From Comamonas aquatica NBRC 14918 (lineage in GTDB: Bacteria > Pseudomonadota > Gammaproteobacteria > Burkholderiales > Burkholderiaceae_C): DNA of 64,000 nt. Positions 42,862-63,592 of the stretch are shown here, one piece after another. The notes below the pieces were generated by a model. It searched no databases. It saw only the letters and a program-made list of their open reading frames with translations, and was not told where the DNA came from. The stretch spans positions 62,001-126,000 of the forward strand of contig NZ_BBJR01000035.1 of the NCBI RefSeq assembly GCF_000739875.1. Reading direction: 5' to 3'. Position numbers and translations under genes: made by a program. Positions within the stretch are counted from its first letter, which is position 1. Each line of letters begins with the position of its first letter.

Positions 42862-43962
42862 TCAGCGCACGCTGCCCTGCACGCCGTCCACCAGCCAGTC
42901 CATCTGGCGCAGCTGGGTGTCGGTCAGCTGCACGCCCTTGGGAATGCGGACCTGGCCCTGGTTGTCCTTCACGTCGGCCTGGAGTGCGGCAAACGGCTGC
43001 AGCTTGCCCTGGGCCATCTGCTGCTGGCGTGCCAGCACCTCGTCGCGCACGGCAGCGGGCAGCTTGGGGCCAAAGGCCTCGACGCGCACCATGCCCTCCT
43101 TCACACCGCCCCAGGTGTCGGCGCTTTTCCAGCGGCCCTCCAGCGCGGCCTTGGCGCGCTGGGTGTAGTAGCCGCCCCACTGATGGGTTACGGCCAGCAA
43201 CTGGGCGTCCGGCCCGTCCTTGCGCATGTCGGAGTGGAAGGCGATCGCCATCTTGCCGCGCTCCTGCGCAGCGGCCATCACGGCCGTGGTCGCCACCTGG
43301 AAGGACAGCACATCGGCGCCCTGGTCCATCAGCGTCATGGCGGCGTCGCGCTCACGCGGTGGGTCGAACCAGGCGTTCAGCCACACCACCTTGACCTGGG
43401 CCTTGGGGTTGACGCTGCGCATGCCCAGCGTGAAGGCGTTGATGCCCTGCAGCACTTCGGGGATGGGGAAGCCCGCCACAAAGCCGGCCACGCCGGTCTT
43501 GCTCATGCGGCCGGCAGCGATGCCGGACAAATAGCGCCCTTCGTAGTTGCGCGCGTTGCCGGTGGCCACGTTGTCCGCCAGCTTGTAGCCGGTCACGTTC
43601 TCGAACTTGACCTGGGGGAATTCCTTGGCGACCCGCAGCGTCGGGTCCATGTAACCAAAGCTGGTGGTGAAGATCAGCTGGTGGCCGTTGGCCGCCAGGT
43701 CGCGGATCACGCGCTCGGCATCCGGACCTTCGGGCACGTTCGCCACGGCGGTGGACTGCACCTGCGCGCCCAGGGCCTTTTGCATTTCCAGGCGGCCGTT
43801 TTCGTGCTGGCGCGTCCAGCCGGCGTCCAGCACGGGCGTGACGTAGACAAAGGCGGCCTTCAGGGGCGCGGTGCTGGGAGTGGCAGGGGTGGCGGCGGTT
43901 TGCGCCAGGGACGGGGCGATAACGCAGGCGGCCACGAGCGTGGCTGCGAGGTTTTTGTACAT
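42862..43962 (-). CDS. BMP family ABC transporter substrate-binding protein (copy 1)
   Basis: A 366-residue periplasmic binding protein of the BMP/Med family, which binds nucleosides or purine derivatives. A standard signal peptide ends near APSLAQ, without a lipobox, unlike the two other copies. The mature part has APLKAAFVYVTPVLDAGWTRQHENG and SFGYMDPTLRVAKEFPQVKFENVTG (split). It sits just before guaD and presumably feeds the ABC importer encoded at 49638-53231 or a system elsewhere. Confidence 0.88.
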   Translation of the reverse strand: MYKNLAATLVAACVIAPSLAQTAATPATPSTAPLKAAFVYVTPVLDAGWTRQHENGRLEMQKALGAQVQSTAVANVPEGPDAERVIRDLAANGHQLIFTTSFGYMDPTLRVAKEFPQVKFENVTGYKLADNVATGNARNYEGRYLSGIAAGRMSKTGVAGFVAGFPIPEVLQGINAFTLGMRSVNPKAQVKVVWLNAWFDPPRERDAAMTLMDQGADVLSFQVATTAVMAAAQERGKMAIAFHSDMRKDGPDAQLLAVTHQWGGYYTQRAKAALEGRWKSADTWGGVKEGMVRVEAFGPKLPAAVRDEVLARQQQMAQGKLQPFAALQADVKDNQGQVRIPKGVQLTDTQLRQMDWLVDGVQGSVR

Positions 43963-44155: not shown

Positions 44156-44605
44156 ATGCCCATGTTTGTGGACACCTCCCCCCCCGGCCAGTGCATCTTC
44201 TGCAAGATCGTGGCCGGCGACATCCCGGCCGCCAAGGTCTACGAGGACGCGCTGACCGTGGCCTTCATGGACATCGGCCAGGTCAACCCAGGCCATGTGC
44301 TGGTGGCCAGCAAGCGCCATGCGGTGACGGTGCTGGACCTGACCCCCGAGGAAGCCGCCGCCGTGATGCAGACCGCGCAGCGCGTGGCGGCTGCGGCCCA
44401 GACCGCGTTTGCGCCCGATGGCATCACCCTGTTCCAGGCCAATGGCGCCGCCGGCGGGCAGACGGTGTTCCACTTTCACCTGCATGTGCTGCCGCGCCAT
44501 GCAGGCGACGGCGTGGCCCTGGCCTGGCCGCGCAAGGAACCGGGGGCCCAGGTGCTGCAGACCTATGCCGCGCAGTTGCAGGCGGCCCTGCAGGCCACTG
44601 CATAA
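44156..44605 (+). CDS. HIT family nucleotide-binding protein
   Basis: A 149-residue histidine-triad protein with CIFCKIVAGDIPAAKVYED near residue 14 and the catalytic triad HFHLHVLPR, as in HINT-type phosphoramidases and nucleotide hydrolases. The exact substrate is unknown. It lies in the purine region but on the opposite strand to guaD and the deaminase, followed by a perfect palindromic hairpin. Confidence 0.9.
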   Translation: MPMFVDTSPPGQCIFCKIVAGDIPAAKVYEDALTVAFMDIGQVNPGHVLVASKRHAVTVLDLTPEEAAAVMQTAQRVAAAAQTAFAPDGITLFQANGAAGGQTVFHFHLHVLPRHAGDGVALAWPRKEPGAQVLQTYAAQLQAALQATA

Positions 44606-44630
44606 GCCATAGCAGGCTGCGCAGATGAAT

Positions 44631-44666
44631 CAAGGGGTTGAGGTTCTTATGAACCTCAACCCCTTG
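44631..44666. terminator. Perfect 16-bp palindromic hairpin
   Basis: CAAGGGGTTGAGGTTC (44631-44646) and its exact complement (44651-44666) flank a 4-nt loop TTAT. It stands between the convergent HIT gene and the deaminase gene, with a TTCTTC tail and no long U-run. The likely role is bidirectional termination or transcript protection. Sixteen perfect pairs are more than a terminator needs. Confidence 0.65.
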
Positions 44667-44758
44667 TTCTTCAAGCGCTGTGCGCTATGTTTTCAGCATG
44701 GCCTGCGCACCGCGCTTCCTGCGCCGCCACGGCAGACCAACCCCGATGCCGCGTCGCC

Positions 44759-45823
44759 TCAGGACGCCTGGGCCAGCTGTGCCACGCAGTCGTCCAGCTG
44801 CTGCACCCAGGCAGCCTGCTGGGCCGGGCTGGCAAACGTCGCCTCCAGGCTGTTGCGGGCCAGCTGGTAGGCCTGCACCGCGCCCATGCCGGTGGCGGCA
44901 AACAGCTGCAGGTAGTTGTCGTTCACATAGCCACCAAAGTAGGCTGGATCGTCCGAGTTGACGGTCACGTTCAGCCCCGCCGCCAGCAGGCGTGGCAGGT
45001 TGTGGTCGCGCAGGTCGGGGAAGACGCACAGCTTCTGGTTGGACAGCGGACACACCGTCAGCGGCATGCGCGTGGCGGCCAGGTGGCGCATCAGTTCCGG
45101 GTCCTGCTCGGACTGCACGCCGTGGTCGATGCGCTCCACCTGCAGGGCGTTGAGCGCGCCCCAGACGTAGGCGGGTGGCCCCTCCTCGCCCGCGTGGGCG
45201 ACCAGGTGCAGGCCCAGTGCCTTGCAGCGGGCAAACACGCGCTCAAACTTTTCGGGCGGATTGCCACGCTCCGAGCTGTCCAGGCCGATGCCGATGAAGT
45301 GCTCGCGGTACGGCAGGGCGGCCTCCAGCGTCTCGAAGGCGGCTTCCTCGCTCAGGTGGCGCAGGAAGCTCAGGATCAGCACCGCGCTAATGCCCCAGCG
45401 CGCCTCGGCGTCCTTGCAGGCGCTCGACAGGCCGTGGATCACGGTGGCCATGGGCACGCCGCGCTCGGTGTGGGTCTGGGGGTCGAAGAAGATCTCGGTG
45501 CGCACCACGTGGTCGGCGGCAGCGCGCGCCAGGTAGGCCATGGCCATGTCGTAGAAATCGACCTCCTGCAGCAGCACGCTGGCACCGGCGTAGTAGATGT
45601 CCAGAAAGCTCTGCAGATCGGTGAAGGCATAGGCCGCGCGCAGCGCTTCCACGCTGGCGTAAGGCAATGTCACACCGTTGCGCTGGGCCAGGGCAAAGAT
45701 CAGCTCGGGCTCCAGCGAGCCTTCGATGTGCATGTGCAGCTCGGCCTTGGGCATGGTGCACAGCAGCGCGGGCACGTGGGCCGCAGCCATGTGCTGGACG
45801 GCGTCGGGAATGGCATAGCTCAT
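44759..45823 (-). CDS. Adenine/adenosine deaminase
   Basis: A 354-residue deaminase of the adenosine deaminase superfamily. Zinc ligands are in PKAELHMHIEGSLEPEL (His30 and His32), then HAGEEGPP and SDDPAYFGG. LHMHIEGSLEPELIFALAQRN resembles the adenine deaminase subgroup (Aah1-like) more than classical adenosine deaminase, and the purine-catabolic setting agrees, but the choice is not certain. The ATG at 45823 comes 2 bp after the stop of the Rieske oxygenase gene, suggesting coupling; a TTG at 45832 would overlap that gene. Confidence 0.86.
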   Translation of the reverse strand: MSYAIPDAVQHMAAAHVPALLCTMPKAELHMHIEGSLEPELIFALAQRNGVTLPYASVEALRAAYAFTDLQSFLDIYYAGASVLLQEVDFYDMAMAYLARAAADHVVRTEIFFDPQTHTERGVPMATVIHGLSSACKDAEARWGISAVLILSFLRHLSEEAAFETLEAALPYREHFIGIGLDSSERGNPPEKFERVFARCKALGLHLVAHAGEEGPPAYVWGALNALQVERIDHGVQSEQDPELMRHLAATRMPLTVCPLSNQKLCVFPDLRDHNLPRLLAAGLNVTVNSDDPAYFGGYVNDNYLQLFAATGMGAVQAYQLARNSLEATFASPAQQAAWVQQLDDCVAQLAQAS

Positions 45824-45825
45824 GG

Positions 45826-46830
45826 TCAGCAAACTCCAAAGGTCACGCCGCTGGCCTTGAGGTAGCGGCGGTAGGCGGACGACATGCGGTCGGCCGCCGA
45901 ATGCAACTCCGCGCGCGGGTCCAGGGGCAGCGCCTTGGGCTGCTGCGACTCCAGCACCGGCTGGTCCTGCGTGAAGATGGTGTGCTGGAAGGCCTGAAGC
46001 TGTTCATCGCTGGATTCGAAGTCTGCCACGGCCAGGCGGAACCACACACGGCTGGTGGTGGGGCTCACCGGGCAGATGAAGAGGCCGATCGCCTCGCGCC
46101 AGCCGTCCTTGCTGCTGCCGGCTTCGGGAATCTTGGTCAGCAGCGCGGTAAAGGGCGCGGTGACTTCGTAGGTGTAGTGCACCTCGGCCGGCTTGGTGGA
46201 GTGCAGGTTGGACATCGGCTGCACGGCCTTGCAGTTGGTGGCCTTCACGCCGCAGGCAGTGTTCTCGACCTGGTACGGCGCCATCTCGGTCGCATCGCGG
46301 CTGCCCAGCCAGCCCTCGTGCACGAAGCCGAAGTGCGACATGTCCAGGAAGTTCTCGATGATGCGCGGCGCGCTGGCCTGCACGTCGTAGGGCCCGCAGT
46401 TCACCTTGCGCAGGCGCGCGTCGCCCTCGGCCTCGAACACCGGCAGCGGCACCTCGGCCGCCTCCAGTTGCACCCAGATCAGGCCATGGGCTTCCTGCAC
46501 GCCAAAGGATTTCACGCAGTGCTGTGGGGGCGGGGTGAAGGCCGGCACGGCCGGCACCTTGACGCACTGGCCGCTGCTGGCAAACTGCCAGCCGTGGTAG
46601 GGGCACTCCAGCTGGCCGCCCTGGACACGGCCCAGCGACAAGCGCGCACCACGGTGCGGGCAGCGGTCCACAAACGCCTGGGCTGCGCCTTGGGCATCGC
46701 GCCACAGCACCAGGTCTTCATCCAACAGGCGCACGGGCACAGGGGCATCGGTCACGGCATGGGCCAGGGCCACGGGGTGCCATTGGTTTTTTTCCATCAT
46801 CGGGGTCACATTCATCGTCATGGGCGGCAT
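45826..46830 (-). CDS. Rieske-type aromatic ring-hydroxylating oxygenase, alpha subunit
   Basis: A 334-residue Rieske non-heme iron oxygenase. The N-terminal [2Fe-2S] motif is CPHRG (Cys57/His59) and CPYHGW (Cys76/His79); the mononuclear iron site is DMSHFGFVH (Asp163, His166, His171), the usual DxxHxxxxH arrangement. In a purine region such enzymes may act on purines: HpxD of Klebsiella and methylxanthine demethylases are of this family. No reductase partner is in the window, so its electron donor must be encoded elsewhere. It precedes the deaminase by 2 bp. The ATG at 46830 has GGAAAG immediately upstream; the ATG at 46821 is an alternative. Confidence 0.88.
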   Translation of the reverse strand: MPPMTMNVTPMMEKNQWHPVALAHAVTDAPVPVRLLDEDLVLWRDAQGAAQAFVDRCPHRGARLSLGRVQGGQLECPYHGWQFASSGQCVKVPAVPAFTPPPQHCVKSFGVQEAHGLIWVQLEAAEVPLPVFEAEGDARLRKVNCGPYDVQASAPRIIENFLDMSHFGFVHEGWLGSRDATEMAPYQVENTACGVKATNCKAVQPMSNLHSTKPAEVHYTYEVTAPFTALLTKIPEAGSSKDGWREAIGLFICPVSPTTSRVWFRLAVADFESSDEQLQAFQHTIFTQDQPVLESQQPKALPLDPRAELHSAADRMSSAYRRYLKASGVTFGVC

Positions 46831-46840
46831 CTTTCCAAAG

Positions 46841-46864
46841 AAAAAGGCTGCCCGTAGGCAGCCT
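46841..46864 (-). terminator. Terminator after BMP copy 2
   Basis: AGGCTGCC (46845-46852) and GGCAGCCT (46857-46864) pair over CGTA; read leftward it ends in UUUUU. It lies between the BMP gene at 46905 and the Rieske gene, so the Rieske-deaminase pair needs read-through or its own promoter within about 75 bp. Confidence 0.75.
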
Positions 46865-46904
46865 CTGCAATATCCGAGCCTGGTTCAGGCCCGAATGCCA
46901 GTCC

Positions 46905-48053
46905 TTACTGACCAGGCACCTTGCCTTCCACACCCTTGACGTAGAAGTTGATGCCAGACAGGAAAGCGTCGTCGGCTGCAGCGCCCGTGGCCAGGATTTC
47001 CTTGCCGTCATTGCCGGCGATCGGGCCCTTCCAGATCTGGAAGGTGCCCGCCTTCAGGCCGGCCTTGACTTCGTCCACCTTGACCTTGAGTTCGGCAGGC
47101 ACGTCGGAGGCCACGGAGACCAGGTCGATCGCGCCTTCCTTCACGCCCCACCAGCTGCTGCCCGTGGTCCAGCTGCCGTTGATGGCTTCATTGGCGGCCT
47201 TGATGTAGTACGGCGACCAGTCGATGATGGCCGAGCCCAGGTGGGCCTTGGGGCCGTAGGCGGTCATGTCCGAATCCCAGCCGAAGGCGCGCTTGCCCTT
47301 TTCCTCGGCCGTCTTCAGCACGGCGGGCGAATCGGTGTTCTGGAACAGGATGTCGGCACCGCCATTGATCAGGCTGGTGGCGGCTTCGGTTTCCTTGGGT
47401 GGGCTGAACCATTCGTTGACCCAGACCACCTTGGTGGTGATCTTGGGGTTGACCGACTGCGCGCCCAGGGTGAAGGAGTTGATGTTGCGGATCACTTCAG
47501 GGATCGGCACCGATGCCACCACGCCCAGGGTGTTGGACTTGGTCATGCCACCGGCGATCACTCCGGCCATGTAGGCGCCTTCGTAGGTGCGGCTGTCGTA
47601 GGTGCGCACGTTCTCGGCGGTCTTGTAGCCGGTGGCGTGTTCGAACTTGACGTCCTTGAAGTCGGGGGCGATCTTCTGCAGCGAATCCATGTAGCCGAAG
47701 GTGGTGCCGAAGATCAGCTTGTTGCCCTGGCTGGCCAGGTCGCGCAGCACGCGCTCGGCGTCGGGGCCTTCGGGCACGCTCTCCACATAGCTGGTCTGAA
47801 CCTTGTCACCCAACGCGTCCTGCATCTTCTTGCGGGCCGTGTCGTGCGCGAAGCTCCAGCCGCCATCCCCCACGGGACCCACGTAGGCGAAAGCGATCTT
47901 CAAGGGCTCGGCCTTAGCAGGCGCTTCGGCCGCAGGGGCTGCCGCAGGTGCGGGAGCGGCTTCTTCTTTCTTGCCGCACGCCGCCAGGGCTGTCACGGTC
48001 AGCGCCGACACGGCGGTCAGTTTGAACAGGGAACGTTTGTTCAGGTCAGTCAT
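46905..48053 (-). CDS. BMP family ABC transporter substrate-binding lipoprotein (copy 2)
   Basis: A 382-residue lipoprotein with an N-terminal signal and lipobox (LTVTALAAC, Cys26), then an Ala/Pro/Glu-rich linker and the BMP fold (LKIAFAYVGPVGDGGWSFAHD, EGPDAERVLRDLASQG). It is close in sequence to copy 3, so they are a tandem duplication; copy 1 is more distant. It would deliver a nucleoside to the ABC importer. Confidence 0.9.
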   Translation of the reverse strand: MTDLNKRSLFKLTAVSALTVTALAACGKKEEAAPAPAAAPAAEAPAKAEPLKIAFAYVGPVGDGGWSFAHDTARKKMQDALGDKVQTSYVESVPEGPDAERVLRDLASQGNKLIFGTTFGYMDSLQKIAPDFKDVKFEHATGYKTAENVRTYDSRTYEGAYMAGVIAGGMTKSNTLGVVASVPIPEVIRNINSFTLGAQSVNPKITTKVVWVNEWFSPPKETEAATSLINGGADILFQNTDSPAVLKTAEEKGKRAFGWDSDMTAYGPKAHLGSAIIDWSPYYIKAANEAINGSWTTGSSWWGVKEGAIDLVSVASDVPAELKVKVDEVKAGLKAGTFQIWKGPIAGNDGKEILATGAAADDAFLSGINFYVKGVEGKVPGQ

Positions 48054-48367
48054 GAATCGTCCTTATGTAGGGGAGTAGCAAACCACTGCAGCAGCGTCTG
48101 CAGCGCACGGCAGCTTGCCCGCAGGCATGCCTCCGTTTGCTGAGGGCGTGATGGTTGCACAAAACCAGTGCACTTTTTCAAAAGCCCATCACATCCTAAT
48201 GCCGGTGTGTCGAAATCCATCCAGCGATCCGGCACGCAGACGGCAAGCGTTGCATTCAGAGCGCACCGCAAGATGCATGCCACCGCCTGTCGCCCACAAA
48301 AAAGCCTCCGACAAACGGAGGCCTGGGTATCTGCTGCACGGCGCAGATCGCCGTGCAGCGGGCAGCT
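48054..48367. other. Spacer between BMP copies 2 and 3
   Basis: This 314-bp region holds the terminator of copy 3 (48298-48322) and presumably the promoter of copy 2. A stretch TGCACAAAACCAGTGCA (48155-48171) has TGCAC/GTGCA arms. No gene was seen. Confidence 0.45.
48298..48322 (-). terminator. Terminator after BMP copy 3
   Basis: GCCTCCG (48304-48310) pairs with CGGAGGC (48316-48322) across a 5-nt loop; six A on the left give U6 leftward. It separates copy 3 from copy 2 as transcription units. Confidence 0.8.
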
Positions 48368-49525
48368 TTACTTGCCGGTACCGGGCACGGTACCTTCCAC
48401 GCCATGGACGTAGAACTTGATGCTGGTGATGAAGGGCATGTCGGCCACTTGGCCATCGGCCAGCAGTTCCTTGCCGGTGTTGTCCTTCAACGGGCCCTTC
48501 CAGATCTGGAACGTGCCGTCCTTCAGACCCTGGCGCACTTCAGCCACCTTGTCCTTGATGTTCTGGGGCACGTCGTCCGAGATCTTGACCAGATCCATCG
48601 CGCCTTCCTTCACGCCCCACCAGAAGTTCTGGCCGTTCTCCACCTTGCCGTCCAGCGCGTCCTGCACCACCTTGGTGTAGTAAGGCGCCCAGTTGATCAC
48701 GGCCGAGCCCAGGTGGGCCTTGGGCGCATAGGCGCTCATGTCGCCGTCCTTGCCGAAAGCGTAGACACCGCGCTCTTCCGCCGTCTTCAGCACGGCGGGC
48801 GAGTTGGTGTTCTGGTACATCACGTCCACGCCGCCGTTGATCAGGCTGGTGGCCGCTTCGGCTTCCTGGGGTGGGCTGAACCAGGAGTTCACCCACACCA
48901 CCTTGGCCTTGATCGAGGGATCGACGCTTTGCGCACCCAGCACAAAGGAGTTGATGTTGCGCACCACTTCAGGAATTGGCACCGACGCGACCACACCGAT
49001 GGTCTTGGTCTTGGTCATGCCACCGGCCACGATGCCGGCCATGTAGGCGCCTTCGAAGGTCTTGGCATCGTAGGTGGCGCTGTTGGCCGCCTGCTTGTAG
49101 CCCGTGGCGTGCTGGAAGTTCACGCCGGGCAGCTCGGGGGCCAGCTTCTGCACAAATTCCTGGTAGCCGAAGCTGGTGGCGAACACCAGCTTGGTGCCCT
49201 GGGCGGCCATGTCGCGCATCACACGCTCGGCGTCCGGACCTTCGGCCACGCTTTCCACGAAGCTGGTGACGATCTTGTCGCCAAACTTCTCCTGGATGGC
49301 CTTGCGGCCCAGATCGTGCTGGAATGTCCAGCCACCGTCGCCAATCGGGCTCACATACACGAAACCAACCTTCAGGGGCTCGGCGTTGGCCGGCGCTGGG
49401 GCGGCCGGTGCGGCGGCAGGAGCTGGTGCAGCTTCTTCCTTCTTGCCACAGGCGGCCAGGGTGGCCACGGAGACAGCAGACAGTGCCACCATCTTCAGCA
49501 CAGTGCGTTTGTGCAGTTTGGACAT
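48368..49525 (-). CDS. BMP family ABC transporter substrate-binding lipoprotein (copy 3)
   Basis: A 385-residue lipoprotein with MSKLHKRTVLKMVALSAVS leading to the lipobox ATLAAC, an Ala/Pro linker, and a BMP domain (LKVGFVYVSPIGDGGWTFQHD). It is strikingly like copy 2 throughout (for example SVNPKITTKVVWVNEWFSPP versus SVDPSIKAKVVWVNSWFSPP). It lies 112 bp downstream of the permease gene at 49638 and is likely the principal binding protein of that importer. The ATG at 49525 precedes a proper signal peptide; the frame is open 29 codons further. Confidence 0.9.
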   Translation of the reverse strand: MSKLHKRTVLKMVALSAVSVATLAACGKKEEAAPAPAAAPAAPAPANAEPLKVGFVYVSPIGDGGWTFQHDLGRKAIQEKFGDKIVTSFVESVAEGPDAERVMRDMAAQGTKLVFATSFGYQEFVQKLAPELPGVNFQHATGYKQAANSATYDAKTFEGAYMAGIVAGGMTKTKTIGVVASVPIPEVVRNINSFVLGAQSVDPSIKAKVVWVNSWFSPPQEAEAATSLINGGVDVMYQNTNSPAVLKTAEERGVYAFGKDGDMSAYAPKAHLGSAVINWAPYYTKVVQDALDGKVENGQNFWWGVKEGAMDLVKISDDVPQNIKDKVAEVRQGLKDGTFQIWKGPLKDNTGKELLADGQVADMPFITSIKFYVHGVEGTVPGTGK

Positions 49526-49637: not shown

Positions 49638-50558
49638 TTAAGAGCCGGGGTAAAAAGGCTTGCCTAACGAAGCTGGCATGTTCGCACGAATCCATGCCGG
49701 ATTGCGTGAAATCAGGACCAGCACCACGATGGTGGCGATGTACGGCAGCATGCTCAGCAGCTGGCTGGCAATGTGCACGCCGGTGGCCTGCAGGTGGAAC
49801 TGCAGCATGGTCACGCCGCCAAACAGGTAGGCGCCCAGCAAAATGCGACCAGGCCTCCACGTGGCAAACGTGGTCAGCGCCAGCGCAATCCAACCGCGGC
49901 CGGCCACCATGCCTTCGACCCACAGCGGGGTGTAGACGGTCGACACATAGGCCCCCGCCAGACCGCACAGCGCGCCGCCCGCCATCACCGCACCCAGGCG
50001 GATCATGCGCACGTTATAGCCCAGGGCGTGGGCCGACTCGGGCGACTCGCCGACCGAGCGCAGCACCAGGCCGGCACGCGTGCGGTACAGGAAATAGACC
50101 AGCAGCGCTGCGATCACGATGGCGCCGTACACCAGGGGGTGGTGGCGGAACAGCGCGGGCCCCACCACGGGCAGGTCGGCCAGGTAGGGGATGGCGAACT
50201 TGGGGGTCTCGGGCATCTTGGCCTGCACATAGTTCAGGCCTGCAAATGCAGAGAAGCCGCCCCCAAATAGGCTCAGGGCCAGCCCAGTGGCCGACTGGTT
50301 GGTGTTCAGCCAGATCACCAACACGCCAAAGATGGCCGCCAGCAGGGCACCGGCCCCCATGCCGGCCAGAAAGCCGACCAGCGTACTGCCGGTGTGCACC
50401 ACGGCGGCAAAGCCCGCCAGTGCCGCGCACAGCATCATGCCTTCGGCGCCCAGGTTGATCACCCCGGCCTTTTCGTTGATCAGCAGGCCCAGGGCCGCCA
50501 GCGCCAGCACGGTGCCCGCGCTGAGGGTGGAAGCAAACAGCAATGCGTAGGCATCCAT
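49638..50558 (-). CDS. Nucleoside ABC transporter permease 2
   Basis: A 306-residue inner-membrane permease of the branched-chain-amino-acid/ribose type family found in BMP nucleoside importers (NupQ/YufQ-like). LINEKAGVINLGAEGMML near residue 27 and the EAA-like SVGESPESAHALGYNVRMIRLGA block near 190 are typical. Its ATG overlaps the stop of the upstream permease gene (TGATGG-type overlap). Confidence 0.9.
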   Translation of the reverse strand: MDAYALLFASTLSAGTVLALAALGLLINEKAGVINLGAEGMMLCAALAGFAAVVHTGSTLVGFLAGMGAGALLAAIFGVLVIWLNTNQSATGLALSLFGGGFSAFAGLNYVQAKMPETPKFAIPYLADLPVVGPALFRHHPLVYGAIVIAALLVYFLYRTRAGLVLRSVGESPESAHALGYNVRMIRLGAVMAGGALCGLAGAYVSTVYTPLWVEGMVAGRGWIALALTTFATWRPGRILLGAYLFGGVTMLQFHLQATGVHIASQLLSMLPYIATIVVLVLISRNPAWIRANMPASLGKPFYPGS

Positions 50559-51643
50559 CACTGGGCTCCCTTCACTGCGCCCGACTTGGCACCGACCCAG
50601 CGCACGCGGTACGCGATCAGGGTGTCGCAGGCCAGCAGGGCAAACAGCAGCAGCCCCTGGAAGACACCCGTCAGAGATTTGGGCAAGCCCAGGCGCGACT
50701 GCGCCAGCTCACCGCCGATGTAGAACATGCTCATCAAAATGGCAGAGAAAATCATGCCCACGGGGTGCAAACGCCCCACGAAGGCAACAATGATGGCCGC
50801 AAAACCGTAGCCGGCCGGCACATAGGGCGTGAGCTGGCCGATCGGGCCCGCCACCTCCAGCGCACCCGCCAGACCGGCCGCGCCCCCGGAGATCAGCAGC
50901 GCCGTCCACAGCGCGCGACGCGAGGAAAAGCCGGCATAGCGTGCCGCGGCCGGGGCCATGCCCCCCACCTGCTGGGCAAAGCCGGCCTTGGTGCGGAACA
51001 GGAACACCCACAGGCCCGCAGCCCCCGCCAGCGCCAGCAGCGTGCCGATGTGTACGCGGGTGCCCTCAATCAGCTTGGGAATCTGGGTGACACGCTCGAA
51101 GGCCTTGGACTGCGGGAAGTTGTAGCCCATGGGGTCCTTCCAGGGACCATAGACCAGATAGCCCAGCACCAGGGTCCCGACGTACACCAGCATCAGGCTG
51201 ACCAGGATCTCGTTGGCGTTGAAGCGGTCACGCAACAAGGCCACGATGCCTGCCCACACCATGCCGCCCAGCACACCGGCCAGCAAAATCGCCGGTACGA
51301 TCCAAGGGCCCGTGGTCTTGTCGGCCAGCAGCGCCACGCCGCCTGCCGTGACCGCACCGATCACGAACTGGCCTTCAGCGCCGATGTTCCAGATGTTGGA
51401 GCGGAAGCACACGGCCAAGCCCAGCGCGATCAGCAGCAGGGGGGTGGCCTTCATCACCAGCTCACCCAGGGCGTAGCTGGTCTTGATGGGCTCCCAGAAA
51501 AAGGCCTGCAGGCCCTTGACCGGGTCCTTGCCCAGGGCCGCAAACAGGCACACGCCGATCGCCACCGTGATCAGCAAGGCCAGGATCGGCGCGCCATAGG
51601 TCCAGAACCTGGACACCTGGGGACGGGGTTCGAGCTTAAACAT
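50558..51643 (-). CDS. Nucleoside ABC transporter permease 1
   Basis: A 361-residue permease, the partner of the protein at 49638 (NupP/YufP-like). It has VCFRSNIWNIGAEGQFVIGAVTAGG (two blocks) near residue 79 and AAARYAGFSSRRALWTALLISG in the cytoplasmic loop. The ATG at 51643 overlaps the ATPase gene by 8 bp, so ATPase, permease 1 and permease 2 are one translation-coupled operon. Confidence 0.9.
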   Translation of the reverse strand: MFKLEPRPQVSRFWTYGAPILALLITVAIGVCLFAALGKDPVKGLQAFFWEPIKTSYALGELVMKATPLLLIALGLAVCFRSNIWNIGAEGQFVIGAVTAGGVALLADKTTGPWIVPAILLAGVLGGMVWAGIVALLRDRFNANEILVSLMLVYVGTLVLGYLVYGPWKDPMGYNFPQSKAFERVTQIPKLIEGTRVHIGTLLALAGAAGLWVFLFRTKAGFAQQVGGMAPAAARYAGFSSRRALWTALLISGGAAGLAGALEVAGPIGQLTPYVPAGYGFAAIIVAFVGRLHPVGMIFSAILMSMFYIGGELAQSRLGLPKSLTGVFQGLLLFALLACDTLIAYRVRWVGAKSGAVKGAQ

Positions 51644-53315: not shown

Positions 53316-54239
53316 TCATAGCAAAAGAGCGGTATTCTTCACGGCCTCACGCAGCCAGGTGCCGGCACTCGAGTGGTGCGTGCGGTCGTGCCACAGCTGG
53401 TAGTAGCGCATCTGCGGCAAGGGCACTGGCACCGGCAGGATGGCCAGCGGCAGCTGCGCGGCATAGCGCTCGCAGAACTGGCGCCCGGTGGTCAGCACAA
53501 GCAAGCTCGATGCCACCATCTGCGGCATCAGGCCGAAATGGGCGCAGCGCACCGCGATGTTGCGGTGCAGCCCCTGGGCGTTGAGGGCTTCGTCGATCAC
53601 GCCCTTGGCCCCGGGGTGGGTCGGCATCGGGGCGATGTGTTCGGCGTCCAGCCACTCCTCGGCCGTCCAGCCGCGGCGCACGGCCGGGTGCGACTGGCTG
53701 ACCAGGCACACGGGTTCATCGGAGAACAGCTGGGCCATGCGCAGCTCGGTCGGTGGCTGGGGCCAGTTGCCGATCACCACATCCACCTCGCCCTGGGCCA
53801 GCTGGCCGCTGTAGTCCACGCCCTGGCTCAGCGCCTGGAGTTCCACGGCGCACAGCGGCGCCTGCTTTTTCAGGAGGGCCACCAGCTTGGGCAGGAACTG
53901 CGGGTCCAGGTAGTCGCTGGCGGCGATGCGAAAGGTGCGCGCCGAGCTGCGCGGATCGAAGGCCCGCGCATCCGTGAACAGGTGCTCCGCCGACTGCAGG
54001 ATGGCGGCCGCAGGCTCCAGCATGCGCAGCGCGGCATCGGTGGGCTGCATGCCGCCGCCCGAACGCACCAGGATGGGATCGCCCGACAGGTCCCGCAGGC
54101 GCTTGAGCGCCGTGGACACCGCCGGCTGGTGCATGCCCAGACGCACTGCCGCCCGCGATACGCTGCGTTCGGCAATCACCGTATGCAGCACGCGGATCAG
54201 GTGCAGGTCAATCTTTTCAAAGGGCGTGGTTTCTCGCAT
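53316..54239 (-). CDS. LysR family transcriptional regulator (NodD-like type)
   Basis: A 307-residue LysR regulator. The winged helix (LIRVLHTVIAERSVSRAAVRLGMHQPAVSTALKRLRD, about 12-48) has the AVSTALKRLR pattern of the NodD/NahR subgroup. It is 85 bp upstream of the nucleoside ABC operon on the same strand, so it is a candidate controller of purine or nucleoside uptake genes; effector unknown. The start at MRETTPFEKIDLHL is preferred over one 13 codons upstream because LysR proteins begin shortly before the helix. Confidence 0.87.
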   Translation of the reverse strand: MRETTPFEKIDLHLIRVLHTVIAERSVSRAAVRLGMHQPAVSTALKRLRDLSGDPILVRSGGGMQPTDAALRMLEPAAAILQSAEHLFTDARAFDPRSSARTFRIAASDYLDPQFLPKLVALLKKQAPLCAVELQALSQGVDYSGQLAQGEVDVVIGNWPQPPTELRMAQLFSDEPVCLVSQSHPAVRRGWTAEEWLDAEHIAPMPTHPGAKGVIDEALNAQGLHRNIAVRCAHFGLMPQMVASSLLVLTTGRQFCERYAAQLPLAILPVPVPLPQMRYYQLWHDRTHHSSAGTWLREAVKNTALLL

Positions 54240-54317
54240 GAAAGAACGATGGGCCGCGAAAGCGACCCAGTATGCCAAGGCGGTGGCGCCCAGGGGGCAG
54301 GGATTATTCGGTGGTGT

Positions 54318-55355: not shown

Positions 55356-56857
<1,502 letters not shown>

Positions 56858-56861
<4 letters not shown>

Positions 56862-59185
56862 ACGCCCCGGACACCCTGTTGAACACGGCCGCGCAGGGCG
56901 CGGTCGGCCAGTCCCACCTGCACGAAAGCGCACGCGCCCAGGTGCTGGGCCAGGCGCCCTACCTGGACGACATGCCCGAGGTGCGCGGCACACTGTATGC
57001 CGCGCCCATCCTGTCCCGGGTGGCCCACGGCACGCTGCACGGCGTGGACACGCGCGCGGCCCTGGCCATGCCCGGTGTGCGCGGCGTGGTGCTGGCAGCC
57101 GACATTCCCGGCGACCCCATCCTGGCCGCCTTCGGCCATGACGAACCCATTTTTGCCCTGGACCAGGTGCTGTACGTCGGCCAGGTGATCGGCCTGGTCG
57201 TGGCCGACAGCGTGATGGCCGCGCGCCGCGCGGCGCGCCAGGTCCAGCCGGACATCAGCCCCCTGCCCGCCATCCTGACGGTGCAGCAGGCGCTAGAGGC
57301 CGAACACTATGTGCTGCCGCCCGTCCATGTGACGCGCGGCGACGCCGATGCCGGCCTGGCGCGTGCGTCCCACCGCCTGCAGGGAACGCTGGAAGTGGGC
57401 GGTCAGGAGCACTTCTACCTGGAAGGCCAGATCGCCTACGTGCTGCCCATGGAACAGAACCAGTGGTGGGTCTACTCCAGCACCCAGCACCCGGGCGAGG
57501 TGCAGGAATGGGTGGCCCACGCCCTGGGCATCGGCAACCACGCCGTCACCGTGCAGTGCCGCCGCATGGGCGGGGGCTTTGGCGGCAAGGAAACCCAGGC
57601 CGGGCACCTGGCCGTGTGGTCGGCCCTGGCGGCGCGCAAGTTCGGCTGCCCGATCAAGCTGCGCCTGGACCGTGACGACGACTTCATGATCACCGGCAAG
57701 CGCCACCCGTTTGCCTACAACTGGGACGTGGGCTTTGACGATACGGGCCTGATCACCGGCCTGAAGCTGCAGATGGCCGCCAACTGCGGTTTCAGCGCCG
57801 ACCTGTCCGGCCCCGTGGCGGACCGCGCCATCTTCCACGCCGACAACGCCTATTTCCTGTCGGACGTGCGCATCAGCTCCTACCGCTGCAAGCTGCACAC
57901 CCAGAGCCACACGGCCTTCCGCGGCTTTGGCGGACCGCAGGGCGTGATCGTCATCGAAACCATCCTGGGCGACATCGCCCGCACCCTGGGCCTGGACCCG
58001 CTGGCCGTGCGCCAGCGCAACTACTACGACGCCGACGCCAGCTCACCGCGCGCCGTCACCCACTACCAGATGACGGTGGAGGACAACATCCTGCACCCGA
58101 TGACCAAAAAACTGGAGCAGGATGCGCTCTACCAGCAAAGGCTGGAGGCCATTTCGGCCTGGAATGCCCAGAACCCGGTGCTGCAGCGCGGCCTCGCCAT
58201 CACGCCGGTCAAGTTCGGCATCAGCTTCACGGCCACGCTGTTCAACCAGGCCGGGGCGCTGGTGCATGTCTACACCGATGGCAGCGTGCAAGTGAACCAC
58301 GGTGGCACCGAGATGGGCCAGGGCCTGAACACCAAGGTGGCCCAGGTGGTGGCCGACGAACTGGGCGTGCTCCTGTCGGCGGTGCAGGTCACCGCCAGCG
58401 ACACCAGCAAGGTGCCCAACGCCAGCGCCACCGCGGCCAGCAGCGGCACCGACCTGAACGGCCGTGCCGCCCAGTATGCGGCACGCAAGGTGCGCGGCAA
58501 CCTGGCGGCCTTCGTCGCCGGGCTGGACGGCTGCGGGGCCGGCGCCGTCAGCTTTGCGGGCGGCCAAATCCACACCCCAAAGGGCACGCGCGACTTCCGG
58601 GCCGTGGTCAAGGAGGCCTATGCCAACCGCATCCAGCTGTGGAGCGATGGCTTCTACCGCACGCCCAAGATCCACTACGACAAGACCACGCTGACCGGAC
58701 GCCCCTTCTATTACTTCGCCTATGGCCTGGCCTGCGCCGAGGTGGCCATCGACACGCTGACCGGCGAATCCAAGGTGCTGGCCATCGACGTGCTGTACGA
58801 CGCCGGCCGCAGCATCAACCCGGCCATCGACATCGGCCAGGTCGAAGGCGGCTTCGTGCAGGGCATGGGCTGGCTGACCACGGAACAGCTGGTCTGGAAC
58901 GACCAGGGCGTACTGACCACGCACGCCCCCAGCACCTACAAGATCCCGGCCACCGGCGACATTCCGGAACACTTCCAAGTCCAGCTCTACCAGGAGCCGA
59001 ACCGCGAGGACAACGTCGGCGGCAGCAAGGCCGTGGGCGAGCCACCGTTCATGCTGGCCATCAGCGTCTACGAAGCCCTGCGCCACGCCATCGCCAGCGC
59101 GCGCGAGCGCCAGGGCAAGCGGGGCGTGGTCCAGTTGCAGGCCCCGGCCACGGCCGAGCATGTGCTGCAGGCCCTGCAGCGCTGA
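56858..59185 (+). CDS. xdhB: Xanthine dehydrogenase large subunit (molybdopterin)
   Basis: A 775-residue molybdenum-binding subunit that oxidises hypoxanthine and xanthine to urate. Diagnostic blocks are RRMGGGFGGKETQ, HTAFRGFGGPQG, GTEMGQGLNTK and, near the C-terminus, KAVGEPPFML, which carries the catalytic glutamate. Ser/Asp-rich start MNAPDTLLNT is normal. It follows xdhA in an overlap. The accessory gene xdhC is found about 4.5 kb away at the right edge, not directly after xdhB. Confidence 0.96.
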
Positions 59186-62156: not shown

Positions 62157-63452
62157 TCAGGGGGTGGGCACGGGCGCTCCGGACTCGAACCACTGCTTGA
62201 AGCTGTCGCGCTCCTCGGCGCTCAGGGCGCCGGGATTGCCGAAGGGCATCTTGCGCAGCTGCACCACCTGGGCATAGATCTGCTGGGCATGGCTCTTCAC
62301 ATCGGCGGGGGTGTCGAACTTGACGTTCTTTTGCGCGATCGTGGCGGAGCTGTGGCAGACCACGCAGTGCTGCTGCATGATGGCGTGCATTTTTTCATAG
62401 CTGCCTGCGCTTGCCGTGCTTGGGCTGGAGGCCGATTCAGCCACAGGTTTGGCGGTCTCCCCCTGCACCACGGACTGGCCCACGGGGGCGATCACGGCCG
62501 GGTTGGCGGCCACCGCCGCGGGCGGGGCCGGGCGCAGCCAGGCGATGACGCCCAGCAGCACCACCACACCCACGGCGGCGTACTTCCAGGGATGGGGGTT
62601 GCGGCCCAGCTTGTGGCCATGGCGCATGACGAAGAACTGGCGGATGGCAGCGCCGGCAAACATCATCAGGATCAGGACCAGCCAGTTCTGCGGGTGGCTG
62701 TGCAGCCAGCCATAGTGGTTGGACAGCATGGCAAACAGCACCGGCAGGGTGAAATAGGTGTTGTGCACGCTGCGCTGCTTGCCGCGCTTGCCGTGGATGG
62801 GGTCAACGGGTTCACCGGCCTTGATGGAAGCCACCATCTTCTTTTGGCCGGGGATGATCCAGAAGAACACGTTGGCGCTCATGGATGTGGCCAGCATGGC
62901 ACCGATCAGCAGGAAGGCGGCCTGGCCGGGGAAGATGTGGCAGGCCAGGTAGGCGGCCACGCAGACCAGCACCAGCACCAGCGCGCCGACGGTGGCATCG
63001 CCGCCGTCCTTTTGCCCGAAGACGCGGCAGATGCCGTCGTACAGGAACCAGAACACCACCAGGAAGGCCAGGGCCGCGACGATGGCCATCTGGCTGGACA
63101 TCAGCGGGTTGGCGGGATCGACCAGGTAGATCTTGGCATTCCACAGGTAGGACACCGTCAGCAGCGCAAAGCCGGACAGCCAGGTGGTGTAGCTTTCCCA
63201 ATAGAACCAGTGCAGGTGGTCAGGCAGCTTGGGCGGGGAGACGTTGAACTTGACCGGGTGGTAGAAGCCGCCGCCGTGCACGGCCCAGAGTTCGCCGCTG
63301 ACGCCCTGCTTTTTCAGGTCCTCATCGACCGGCGGGGTCAGGCTGCTGTCGAGGAACACGAAGTAGAACGACGAGCCCACCCAGGCGATGGCGGTAATGA
63401 CATGCAGCCACCGCAACAGCAGGTTGGCCCAGTCGAGGATATAGCTTTCCAT
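62157..63452 (-). CDS. puuD: Urate hydroxylase PuuD (membrane uricase with cytochrome c domain)
   Basis: A 431-residue integral-membrane urate oxidase that converts urate to 5-hydroxyisourate. About eight helices span residues 5-320 (including WLHVITAIAWVGSSFYFVFLD), then an Ala/Pro/Ser-rich linker (about 310-350) and a C-terminal cytochrome c domain with CVVCH at 363-367 and the axial Met402 in LRKMPFG. The fused cytochrome passes electrons to the respiratory chain, so no hydrogen peroxide is made. The ATG at 63452 (MESYILDWANLLLRW) is the family start. Xanthine dehydrogenase makes its substrate. Confidence 0.93.
   Translation of the reverse strand: MESYILDWANLLLRWLHVITAIAWVGSSFYFVFLDSSLTPPVDEDLKKQGVSGELWAVHGGGFYHPVKFNVSPPKLPDHLHWFYWESYTTWLSGFALLTVSYLWNAKIYLVDPANPLMSSQMAIVAALAFLVVFWFLYDGICRVFGQKDGGDATVGALVLVLVCVAAYLACHIFPGQAAFLLIGAMLATSMSANVFFWIIPGQKKMVASIKAGEPVDPIHGKRGKQRSVHNTYFTLPVLFAMLSNHYGWLHSHPQNWLVLILMMFAGAAIRQFFVMRHGHKLGRNPHPWKYAAVGVVVLLGVIAWLRPAPPAAVAANPAVIAPVGQSVVQGETAKPVAESASSPSTASAGSYEKMHAIMQQHCVVCHSSATIAQKNVKFDTPADVKSHAQQIYAQVVQLRKMPFGNPGALSAEERDSFKQWFESGAPVPTP
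62399..62415 (+). repeat. AGCTGCCTGCGCTTGCC element inside puuD
   Basis: These 17 bases are identical to 5033-5049 behind the RidA-family gene and share AGCTGC(C/T)TGCGC with the argF terminator element (20861). Here they lie antisense in the linker-coding part of puuD (residues about 346-352, between the membrane and cytochrome domains). Confidence 0.6.
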
Positions 63453-63592
63453 AGCACTCAACTCCGGCAGCACAAGGGCTGCCCTGGAAGATCAACCTGC
63501 TCACCACTGCGGGCGCTCTGAGCAGAAGAATGGGCCGCGCACCTGGGTTGTAACAACATCGTGGGCACCGCTGCGACCTGTCTTTCGTCAAA

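Follow-up and report, generated by a model that had tools for sequence, protein, structure and literature searches.

The 64,000-nucleotide window analyzed here, taken from Comamonas aquatica NBRC 14918 (contig NZ_BBJR01000035.1, positions 62,001 to 126,000), contains a gene for a single-chain Rieske non-heme iron oxygenase (RO), which belongs to a conserved purine operon as an optional member. This operon comprises a LysR-type regulator, a BMP-type ATP-binding cassette (ABC) importer, and a deaminase, and lies beside the xanthine dehydrogenase genes xdhAB; it probably serves the uptake and breakdown of purine bases in many Comamonas-like bacteria. In our tentative reading, to which we assign a probability of roughly 45%, RO oxidatively N-demethylates methylated purine bases after their import and extends the core operon rather than substituting for xanthine dehydrogenase (XDH). 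The BMP-type importer would bring in a purine base with an N-methyl or other N-alkyl group, RO, as a single-chain relative of the N-demethylase NdmC, would hydroxylate this group, and the hydroxymethyl product would release formaldehyde, leaving the unmodified base. This base could then enter the common route, with guanine handled by guanine deaminase GuaD or adenine by the adjoining deaminase, followed by XDH and urate oxidase. The features of RO and the adjoining deaminase are as follows:

45826..46830, minus strand: RO (P0001), single-chain Rieske non-heme iron oxygenase of 334 aa, NdmC-related
46594..46662, minus strand: Rieske [2Fe-2S] ligands C57-x-H59 / C76-x-x-H79, invariant in 54/54 RO-family members
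46318..46344, minus strand: D163 and the iron ligands H166 and H171; third ligand D289 at 45964-45966
46132..46221, minus strand: stretch with the NdmC-clade signature residues Q204, Y219, and K233; Q288 at 45967-45969
44759..45823, minus strand: deaminase (P0002), adenine-deaminase-like (PA0148-type) branch, Pfam A_deaminase

RO shows the hallmarks of a Rieske oxygenase alpha subunit, i.e., CxH...CxxH ligands, a His-His-Asp site, and the predicted RO fold, and carries the Pfam domains Rieske and VanA_C. The metal ligands presumably have the roles assigned by analogy with the Rieske oxygenase family; D163, H166, H171, and D289 are invariant in the RO family (54/54), in 10/10 NdmC-like chains, and in the HpxD (5), NdmA (2), and NdmB (2) references. 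E13 is conserved in 53/54 family members, and the true start may therefore be Met11 or Met12 (46800/46797) rather than 46830. The end of RO is separated from the ATG of the deaminase (45823) by 2 bp. A preliminary description of this DNA had reported an oxygenase with intact ligands at this distance from a deaminase; the observation was confirmed, and its interpretation is partly supported.

Comparisons were based on a sample of 200 genomes of the GTDB family, C. aquatica NBRC 14918 among them, in which RO orthologues were defined by at least 45% identity, and on 54 RO loci fetched from other family genomes as pieces of up to 20 kb, many of them short (L083, L084, L085, and L087 are left out of this count). 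A second set of named loci comprised the best 80 of a longer list, 72 of which were counted (leaving out L228-L235 with 39-43% identity), and overlaps with the 54 loci in species. The gene caller picked some shadow open reading frames (ORFs) wrongly, and tblastn with the window proteins was relied on instead.

Phylogenetic position, signature residues, and predicted fold

A catalytic-domain tree was built from 82 sequences, leaving out 11 chains that were partial, limited to the Rieske domain, or unrelated, as well as three reference chains of the Rieske/reductase kind; HpxD was represented by annotated Klebsiella and Erwinia records from plasmid-collection records. The 54 RO-family members, the outlier L083, and 10 split NdmC-type chains formed one clade (support 97.7/100); the Mycetohabitans-type RO branched immediately outside this clade, and HpxD and NdmA/NdmB were more distant. 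An approximately unbiased (AU) test on a 43-sequence subset rejected the grouping of RO with HpxD (p = 0.026) and with NdmA/NdmB (p = 0.016), and tree and AU test together rule out a membership of RO in the NdmA/NdmB group. The phylogeny proposed in the preliminary description, with HpxD and NdmA/NdmB as references, thus groups RO with NdmC-type chains; a placement among non-purine oxygenases together with an absence of co-occurring purine genes was looked for and not seen. The view of RO as an oxygenase of a purine region also held; its nearest relatives include the purine N-demethylase NdmC, and purine genes accompany it across genomes.

When all sequences are compared on one set of catalytic columns, P0001 has identities of 35-41% with the 10 NdmC-like chains and 35% with the Mycetohabitans RO, and values for five HpxD-type sequences, NdmA, and NdmB are 29-34%, 31%, and 25%, respectively. 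NdmA and NdmB, the N1- and N3-demethylases of methylxanthines, consist of a single chain like RO and act on purines, with identities of 35% and 30%. HpxD, the hypoxanthine/xanthine hydroxylase of the Klebsiella hpxDE system, shares architecture, purine setting, and 35-37% identity with RO; however, both fall into separate clades, and RO lies beside XDH without HpxE, HpxO, or HpxR adjoining it within the window. A search for HpxO across 274 class genomes, made in order to reach HpxD, returned one HpxO above cut-off with no HpxD seen adjoining. The 43% relative of RO in Mycetohabitans rhizoxinica is plasmid-borne (L108 8376-14468) and flanked by a gene annotated as a 4-hydroxyphenylacetate 3-hydroxylase N-terminal domain; further neighbors are annotated as a diaminobutyrate transaminase family member and a SidA/IucD/PvdA monooxygenase, and the cluster looks biosynthetic.

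Four residues, Q204, Y219, K233, and Q288, are present throughout the RO family (54/54) and in all NdmC-like chains (10/10), but in none of the HpxD (0/5), NdmA (0/2), and NdmB (0/2) sequences; their conservation drops to at least 90% once more distant relatives are added. In a pairwise alignment by eye, SxtT, which is absent from the tree, has Q288 in common with RO and no equivalents of Q204, Y219, and K233. Positions 282/286 are occupied by Q (53/54) and F (54/54) in the RO family, by N/F in NdmA, and by Q/L in NdmB; they were equated with the pair of the NdmA 'QL mutant' (PDB titles) from two NdmA chains aligned to P0001. A passage of PMC8055839 states that two mutations in NdmA switch its specificity from N1 to N3.

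RO shares the catalytic clade and the four signature residues with NdmC-type chains, named after NdmC of Pseudomonas putida CBB5, whose system includes NdmD and NdmE, and several relatives are linked to BMP genes; RO is set in a core purine operon, whereas NdmC belongs to a caffeine cluster. Passages of PMC4408171 describe NdmC as the N7-demethylase of 7-methylxanthine in caffeine breakdown, report that it is without a Rieske cluster and that a glutathione S-transferase (GST)-like protein is required, and place functionally uncharacterized ndmCDE homologues in Sinorhizobium, Mesorhizobium, and others. The clade was anchored to NdmC by the caffeine-type synteny of locus L139, where an NdmC-like chain occurs with NdmA (70%) and NdmB (60%) orthologues and with reductase, GST, and BMP matches. 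In this ndm cluster (L139 4353-17714, Burkholderiaceae), the Rieske domain partner that goes with the NdmC-like chain is encoded as a small protein of its own and not as a fusion to the reductase. Among the split pairs examined in Burkholderiaceae and rhizobia, a GST mostly follows and a BMP gene often adjoins. Two rhizobial loci (L110 9977-18165 and L111 3794-13133) combine a Rieske protein or Rieske-reductase, a catalytic chain, and a GST beside BMP importers; in L110, genes of the XDH family are present as well, together with an amidohydrolase that resembles 8-oxoguanine deaminase but stays below cut-off.

A structure model of RO from 38 sequences reached a predicted local distance difference test score (pLDDT) of 93.9. 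Its best solved match was SxtT/GxtA (Z = 39.0, root-mean-square deviation (rmsd) 1.7, 319 residues), followed by NdmA (Z = 34.3, rmsd 2.2, 308 residues) and NdmB (Z = 32.9, rmsd 2.3, 301 residues). The model confirms the predicted fold and the superfamily neighborhood and says nothing on the reaction.

Distribution of RO and its partners in the purine operon

A clear RO orthologue was found in 55/200 family genomes, i.e., in about a quarter of the sample, while four matches at 1e-38, three of them within the same family, were obtained from a class sample of 369 genomes. Initially, 59 genomes counted as RO-positive; G061, G191, G175, and G052, with partial or 41-47% matches, were scored as RO-negative in the Fisher test described below, and G105 (35% match) was not scored as RO. 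The named loci include Delftia, Comamonas, Acidovorax, Variovorax, Diaphorobacter, and Hydrogenophaga. A BMP gene lies directly upstream of RO within 1 kb in 46/54 loci, and BMP was found in 57/72 named loci; the 54 pieces further contain ABC permease genes (48), XDH (36), and GuaD (30).

At the genome level, XdhB (1e-100) was matched in 54/55 RO genomes and in 7/7 further genomes, and the one RO genome without a match is 74% complete; GuaD (1e-60) was matched in 53/55. Identities are as low as 45-52% for about 20 of these 53 GuaD matches and 50-58% for many XdhB matches, so by sequence identity the weaker ones may represent sister types. Because XdhB is matched in 54/55 RO genomes, an HpxD-type activity would be redundant, as the preliminary description had argued from the XDH genes of the window; together with the tree, the AU test, and the signature residues, this led us to reject an HpxD-type function for RO.

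The optional status of RO is evident from 20 control loci with the deaminase and without an RO orthologue, taken mostly from the top of a list of ~105 such genomes. ABC/BMP genes upstream were retained in 17/20. The RO slot was empty in 10/20, with a BMP gene within 300 bp of the deaminase, and in six others held short or otherwise unrelated-looking ORFs (by eye). In L133, the usual slot of RO between BMP and deaminase is taken by a protein that, by eye, resembles a Tsx/OmpK-type outer-membrane nucleoside channel.

The deaminase was found within 300 bp downstream of RO in 42/54 loci, all of them from other genomes, and the pairing is therefore not due to chance; it lies within 3 kb in five more. 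Seven loci are without a deaminase, two of which end at a contig edge within 500 bp, and among the named loci the deaminase is within 300 bp in 50/72. The conservation survey of the pair that had been suggested earlier thus turned out positive. By sequence, P0002 appears closer to the PA0148 type than to adenosine deaminases: its best solved chains are 3ou8 (404 bits) and 3rys (366 bits), followed by 6n9m with only 129 bits. We take 3ou8/3pan/3pao to be P. aeruginosa PA0148, an adenine deaminase according to the title of a reference; P0002, a putative adenine deaminase, showed no difference from it at the sequence level. The earlier assignment was to an adenine/adenosine deaminase; the 404 bits to 3ou8 favor the adenine type, and the NCBIfam name, above cut-off, is 'adenosine deaminase'.

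In the 200 genomes, the deaminase (1e-90) was matched in 157, i.e., in 52/55 RO genomes and 105/145 others (Fisher p = 4e-4), an association that is confounded by the presence of the operon. The three RO genomes without a match are 100, 93, and 76% complete. In seven of the 72 named loci, all from Oxalobacteraceae (Duganella 4, Noviherbaspirillum 2, and Herminiimonas 1), RO instead adjoins a CDA-type deaminase. One tested partner of this type matched Pfam dCMP_cyt_deam_1; for two tested partners, the best solved matches were 'CMP/dCMP deaminase' entries, followed by guanine deaminase 1wkq, and the top NCBIfam match was TadA, below cut-off. The adenine-type deaminase was located elsewhere in 6/6 searched genomes with a CDA-type partner, and in one Rhizobacter. 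Across lineages, the deaminase partner therefore changes, and RO is accompanied more constantly by the BMP gene. Distance correlations with RO in 43 loci were 0.45 for ADE, 0.55 for BMP2, and 0.45 for PermB, so that no single partner stands out; the values for the ATPase looked unreliable.

A parallel layout to RO, deaminase, and BMP exists on the mobilizable Acinetobacter plasmid NZ_CP015595.1 (L115 10210-18558). Two HpxD-like Rieske oxygenases adjoin HpxO there, and the second, 45-47% identical to Erwinia/Klebsiella HpxD, is directly followed by a nucleoside deaminase of the CDA type and an ABC importer of the BMP type.

Reaction, substrate, and electron donor

From the NdmC clade and the steady linkage to the BMP importer, we infer the substrate class, demethylation over ring hydroxylation, and import. 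Several findings weigh against this. RO keeps its own intact Rieske domain in one chain, whereas NdmC has none and the Rieske domain is on a partner, and an NdmE-like GST was found in 0/54 and 0/72 RO loci (tblastn at 1e-12 with one rhizobial GST as the probe; many pieces are short). The link to NdmC rests on the synteny of L139, the tree having been built without the CBB5 NdmC sequence itself, and the branch order within the clade of RO and NdmC is weakly supported. A202 is present in 53/54 members of the RO family, compared to F in 10/10 NdmC-like chains, and W263 in 54/54, compared to W in only 1/10; the substrate of RO may therefore differ as well. By BLAST, the nearest full-length relative outside the family is the Mycetohabitans RO (43%) with its biosynthetic-looking surroundings, and SxtT/GxtA is the best solved match by both sequence and fold (Z up to 39.0). 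SxtT/GxtA are enzymes of the saxitoxin pathway; their substrate is bicyclic and purine-like and is hydroxylated at a ring carbon. With ring-carbon hydroxylases as the top solved match, the fold cannot choose between hydroxylation and demethylation.

The close spacing to the deaminase would fit an enzyme that dealkylates N6-methyladenine or adenines of the cytokinin type at N6, thereby yielding adenine for the adjoining deaminase. Besides the 2 bp gap and the deaminase within 300 bp in 42/54 loci, a terminator-like hairpin upstream of RO, by which RO and deaminase may be one unit, and the higher deaminase frequency in RO genomes (52/55 compared to 105/145, with the confounding noted above) point in this direction. 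However, the deaminase is far more common than RO (157/200) and the operon exists without RO, so the adjacency may merely reflect that slot; moreover, 3/55 RO genomes are without a deaminase match, RO adjoins a CDA-type deaminase in 7/72 loci with the adenine type elsewhere in the six searched genomes, and NdmC, to our knowledge the sole characterized member of this clade, acts on N7 and not on the exocyclic N6. The earlier proposal that RO specifically feeds an adenine deaminase was therefore not upheld: supplying this enzyme is not the defining link of RO, and we consider N6-dealkylation unlikely. Our literature search returned no relevant title for the cytokinin lead.

An HpxD- or SxtT-like hydroxylation of a purine base, plain or damaged, at one of its ring carbons appears doubtful to us. 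Both HpxD (35-37% identity) and SxtT/GxtA, as the best solved match, are ring hydroxylases, and an 8-oxoguanine deaminase was matched in 3/72 named loci, but the XdhB matches in 54/55 and 7/7 genomes would make an HpxD-type activity redundant, the HpxD grouping was rejected, no hpxE, hpxO, or hpxR adjoins RO in the window, and the four signature residues are common to NdmC-like chains and not to HpxD. It is more improbable still that the importer and RO handle a purine-like or other N-heterocycle that is no nucleobase, such as a pterin or an alkaloid from plants or fungi. While SxtT/GxtA and the Mycetohabitans relative show that part of the superfamily acts outside purine catabolism, and a few loci have RO with the importer or deaminase not adjoining, the close linkage to genes for the BMP importer, XDH, GuaD, and deaminases, which recurs across loci, argues against such a substrate.

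Returning to N-demethylation, our guess for the natural substrate of RO is an N7-methylpurine such as 7-methylguanine, because of the link to NdmC and because guanine-type deaminases are present. Methylated purine bases are set free during RNA turnover. A dedicated oxidative route in Comamonadaceae and relatives is conceivable, albeit with low probability, in which RO would produce guanine by N7-demethylation of imported 7-methylguanine, or of a different 7-methylpurine, derived from RNA or DNA; the guanine would then pass through GuaD, XDH, and urate oxidase. If so, the N7-demethylation of caffeine would be a specialized offshoot of an older methyl-nucleobase catabolism. We found neither a general bacterial oxidative route for methylated purine bases nor a recognizable description of the single-chain RO family in our searches of the open-licence literature. 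RO inside a core purine operon is a concrete candidate for oxidative methylpurine breakdown and may allow growth on modified purines; the family further points to a possible context for the origin of NdmCDE, the unusual split enzyme of caffeine degradation.

In agreement with the preliminary description, no reductase gene was found beside RO; an NdmD/HpxE-like match occurred in just 1/54 and 1/72 loci, and ORF clustering of 58 fetched loci gave no conserved reductase. The electrons for RO must be supplied by a donor that is remote or shared. A search for HpxE in the C. aquatica genome returned weak matches only, none of them within the window. Five Fer2 matches in this genome correspond to one Fer2-FNR fusion, two short ferredoxin-like frames of 137 and 173 aa, a frame of 728 aa, and XdhA. 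The fusion (L151; 345 aa, plant-type ferredoxin/FNR) has Fer2 first, an arrangement from which the domain order of VanB/NdmD differs, and is a candidate electron donor, nothing more.

Neighboring genes and control elements

On the minus strand, the operon runs in the order LysR, ABC ATPase, two permeases, two BMP proteins, RO, and deaminase, the last two being its final genes. xdhAB lies on the opposite strand, and a third BMP gene and guanine deaminase come after a HIT-domain gene:

53316..54278, minus strand: LysR-type regulator, start codon uncertain; LysR_substrate 104.5 bits, HTH_1 58.5 bits
51636..53231, minus strand: ABC transporter ATPase; ABC_tran 165.2 bits, two stretches
50558..51640, minus strand: ABC transporter permease B; BPD_transp_2 133.4 bits
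49638..50561, minus strand: ABC transporter permease A; BPD_transp_2 105.6 bits
48368..49525, minus strand: BMP3, second BMP-type substrate-binding protein; Pfam Bmp 182.2 bits
46905..48053, minus strand: BMP2, BMP/PnrA-type substrate-binding protein; Pfam Bmp 188.7 bits
46843..46866, minus strand: hairpin resembling an intrinsic terminator, followed by a run of T, located between BMP2 and RO; folding energy -19.4 kcal/mol, z -3.4
42862..43962, minus strand: BMP1, third BMP-type protein, beside guanine deaminase; Pfam Bmp 180.9 bits
41367..42686, minus strand: guanine deaminase GuaD; TIGR02967 480.2 bits, above cut-off
55356..56861, plus strand: XdhA, xanthine dehydrogenase small subunit; TIGR02963 573 bits, above cut-off
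56858..59185, plus strand: XdhB, xanthine dehydrogenase large subunit; TIGR02965 1110.7 bits, above cut-off
62157-63473: membrane urate oxidase domain; Urate_ox_N 423.5 bits
33248-34459: FAD monooxygenase, below the HpxO cut-off (142.7 bits of 500)

Guanine deaminase, BMP proteins, and XDH, which had been named as neighbors before, were all recovered. The urate hydroxylase named with them was not, since the FAD monooxygenase stays far below the HpxO cut-off and better matches 3-hydroxybenzoate 6-monooxygenase (305 bits, still under the cut-off of 459). Apart from the genes of the window, ORF clustering of the 58 loci yielded only small clusters (4-9 loci each), several of which resemble shadow ORFs.

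No sigma-70-type promoter was found in a scan of 44500-48500, and an Rfam scan of the window at gathering thresholds gave no riboswitch match; a passage of PMC7373994 reports the NMT1/xanthine riboswitch adjoining hpxD-like genes in other bacteria. The terminator scan of 4 kb returned six sites like the hairpin between BMP2 and RO, compared to 2.9 +/- 1.8 in shuffles, which is not significant by the scan alone. Hairpin equivalents after the BMP gene were present in 23/54 named RO loci (expected ~0.5), in 8/42 family-sample loci (expected ~0.4), and in 8/10 RO-less loci (expected 0.1). RO is thus placed between the terminator of the importer and the deaminase, and RO and deaminase may share one transcript.

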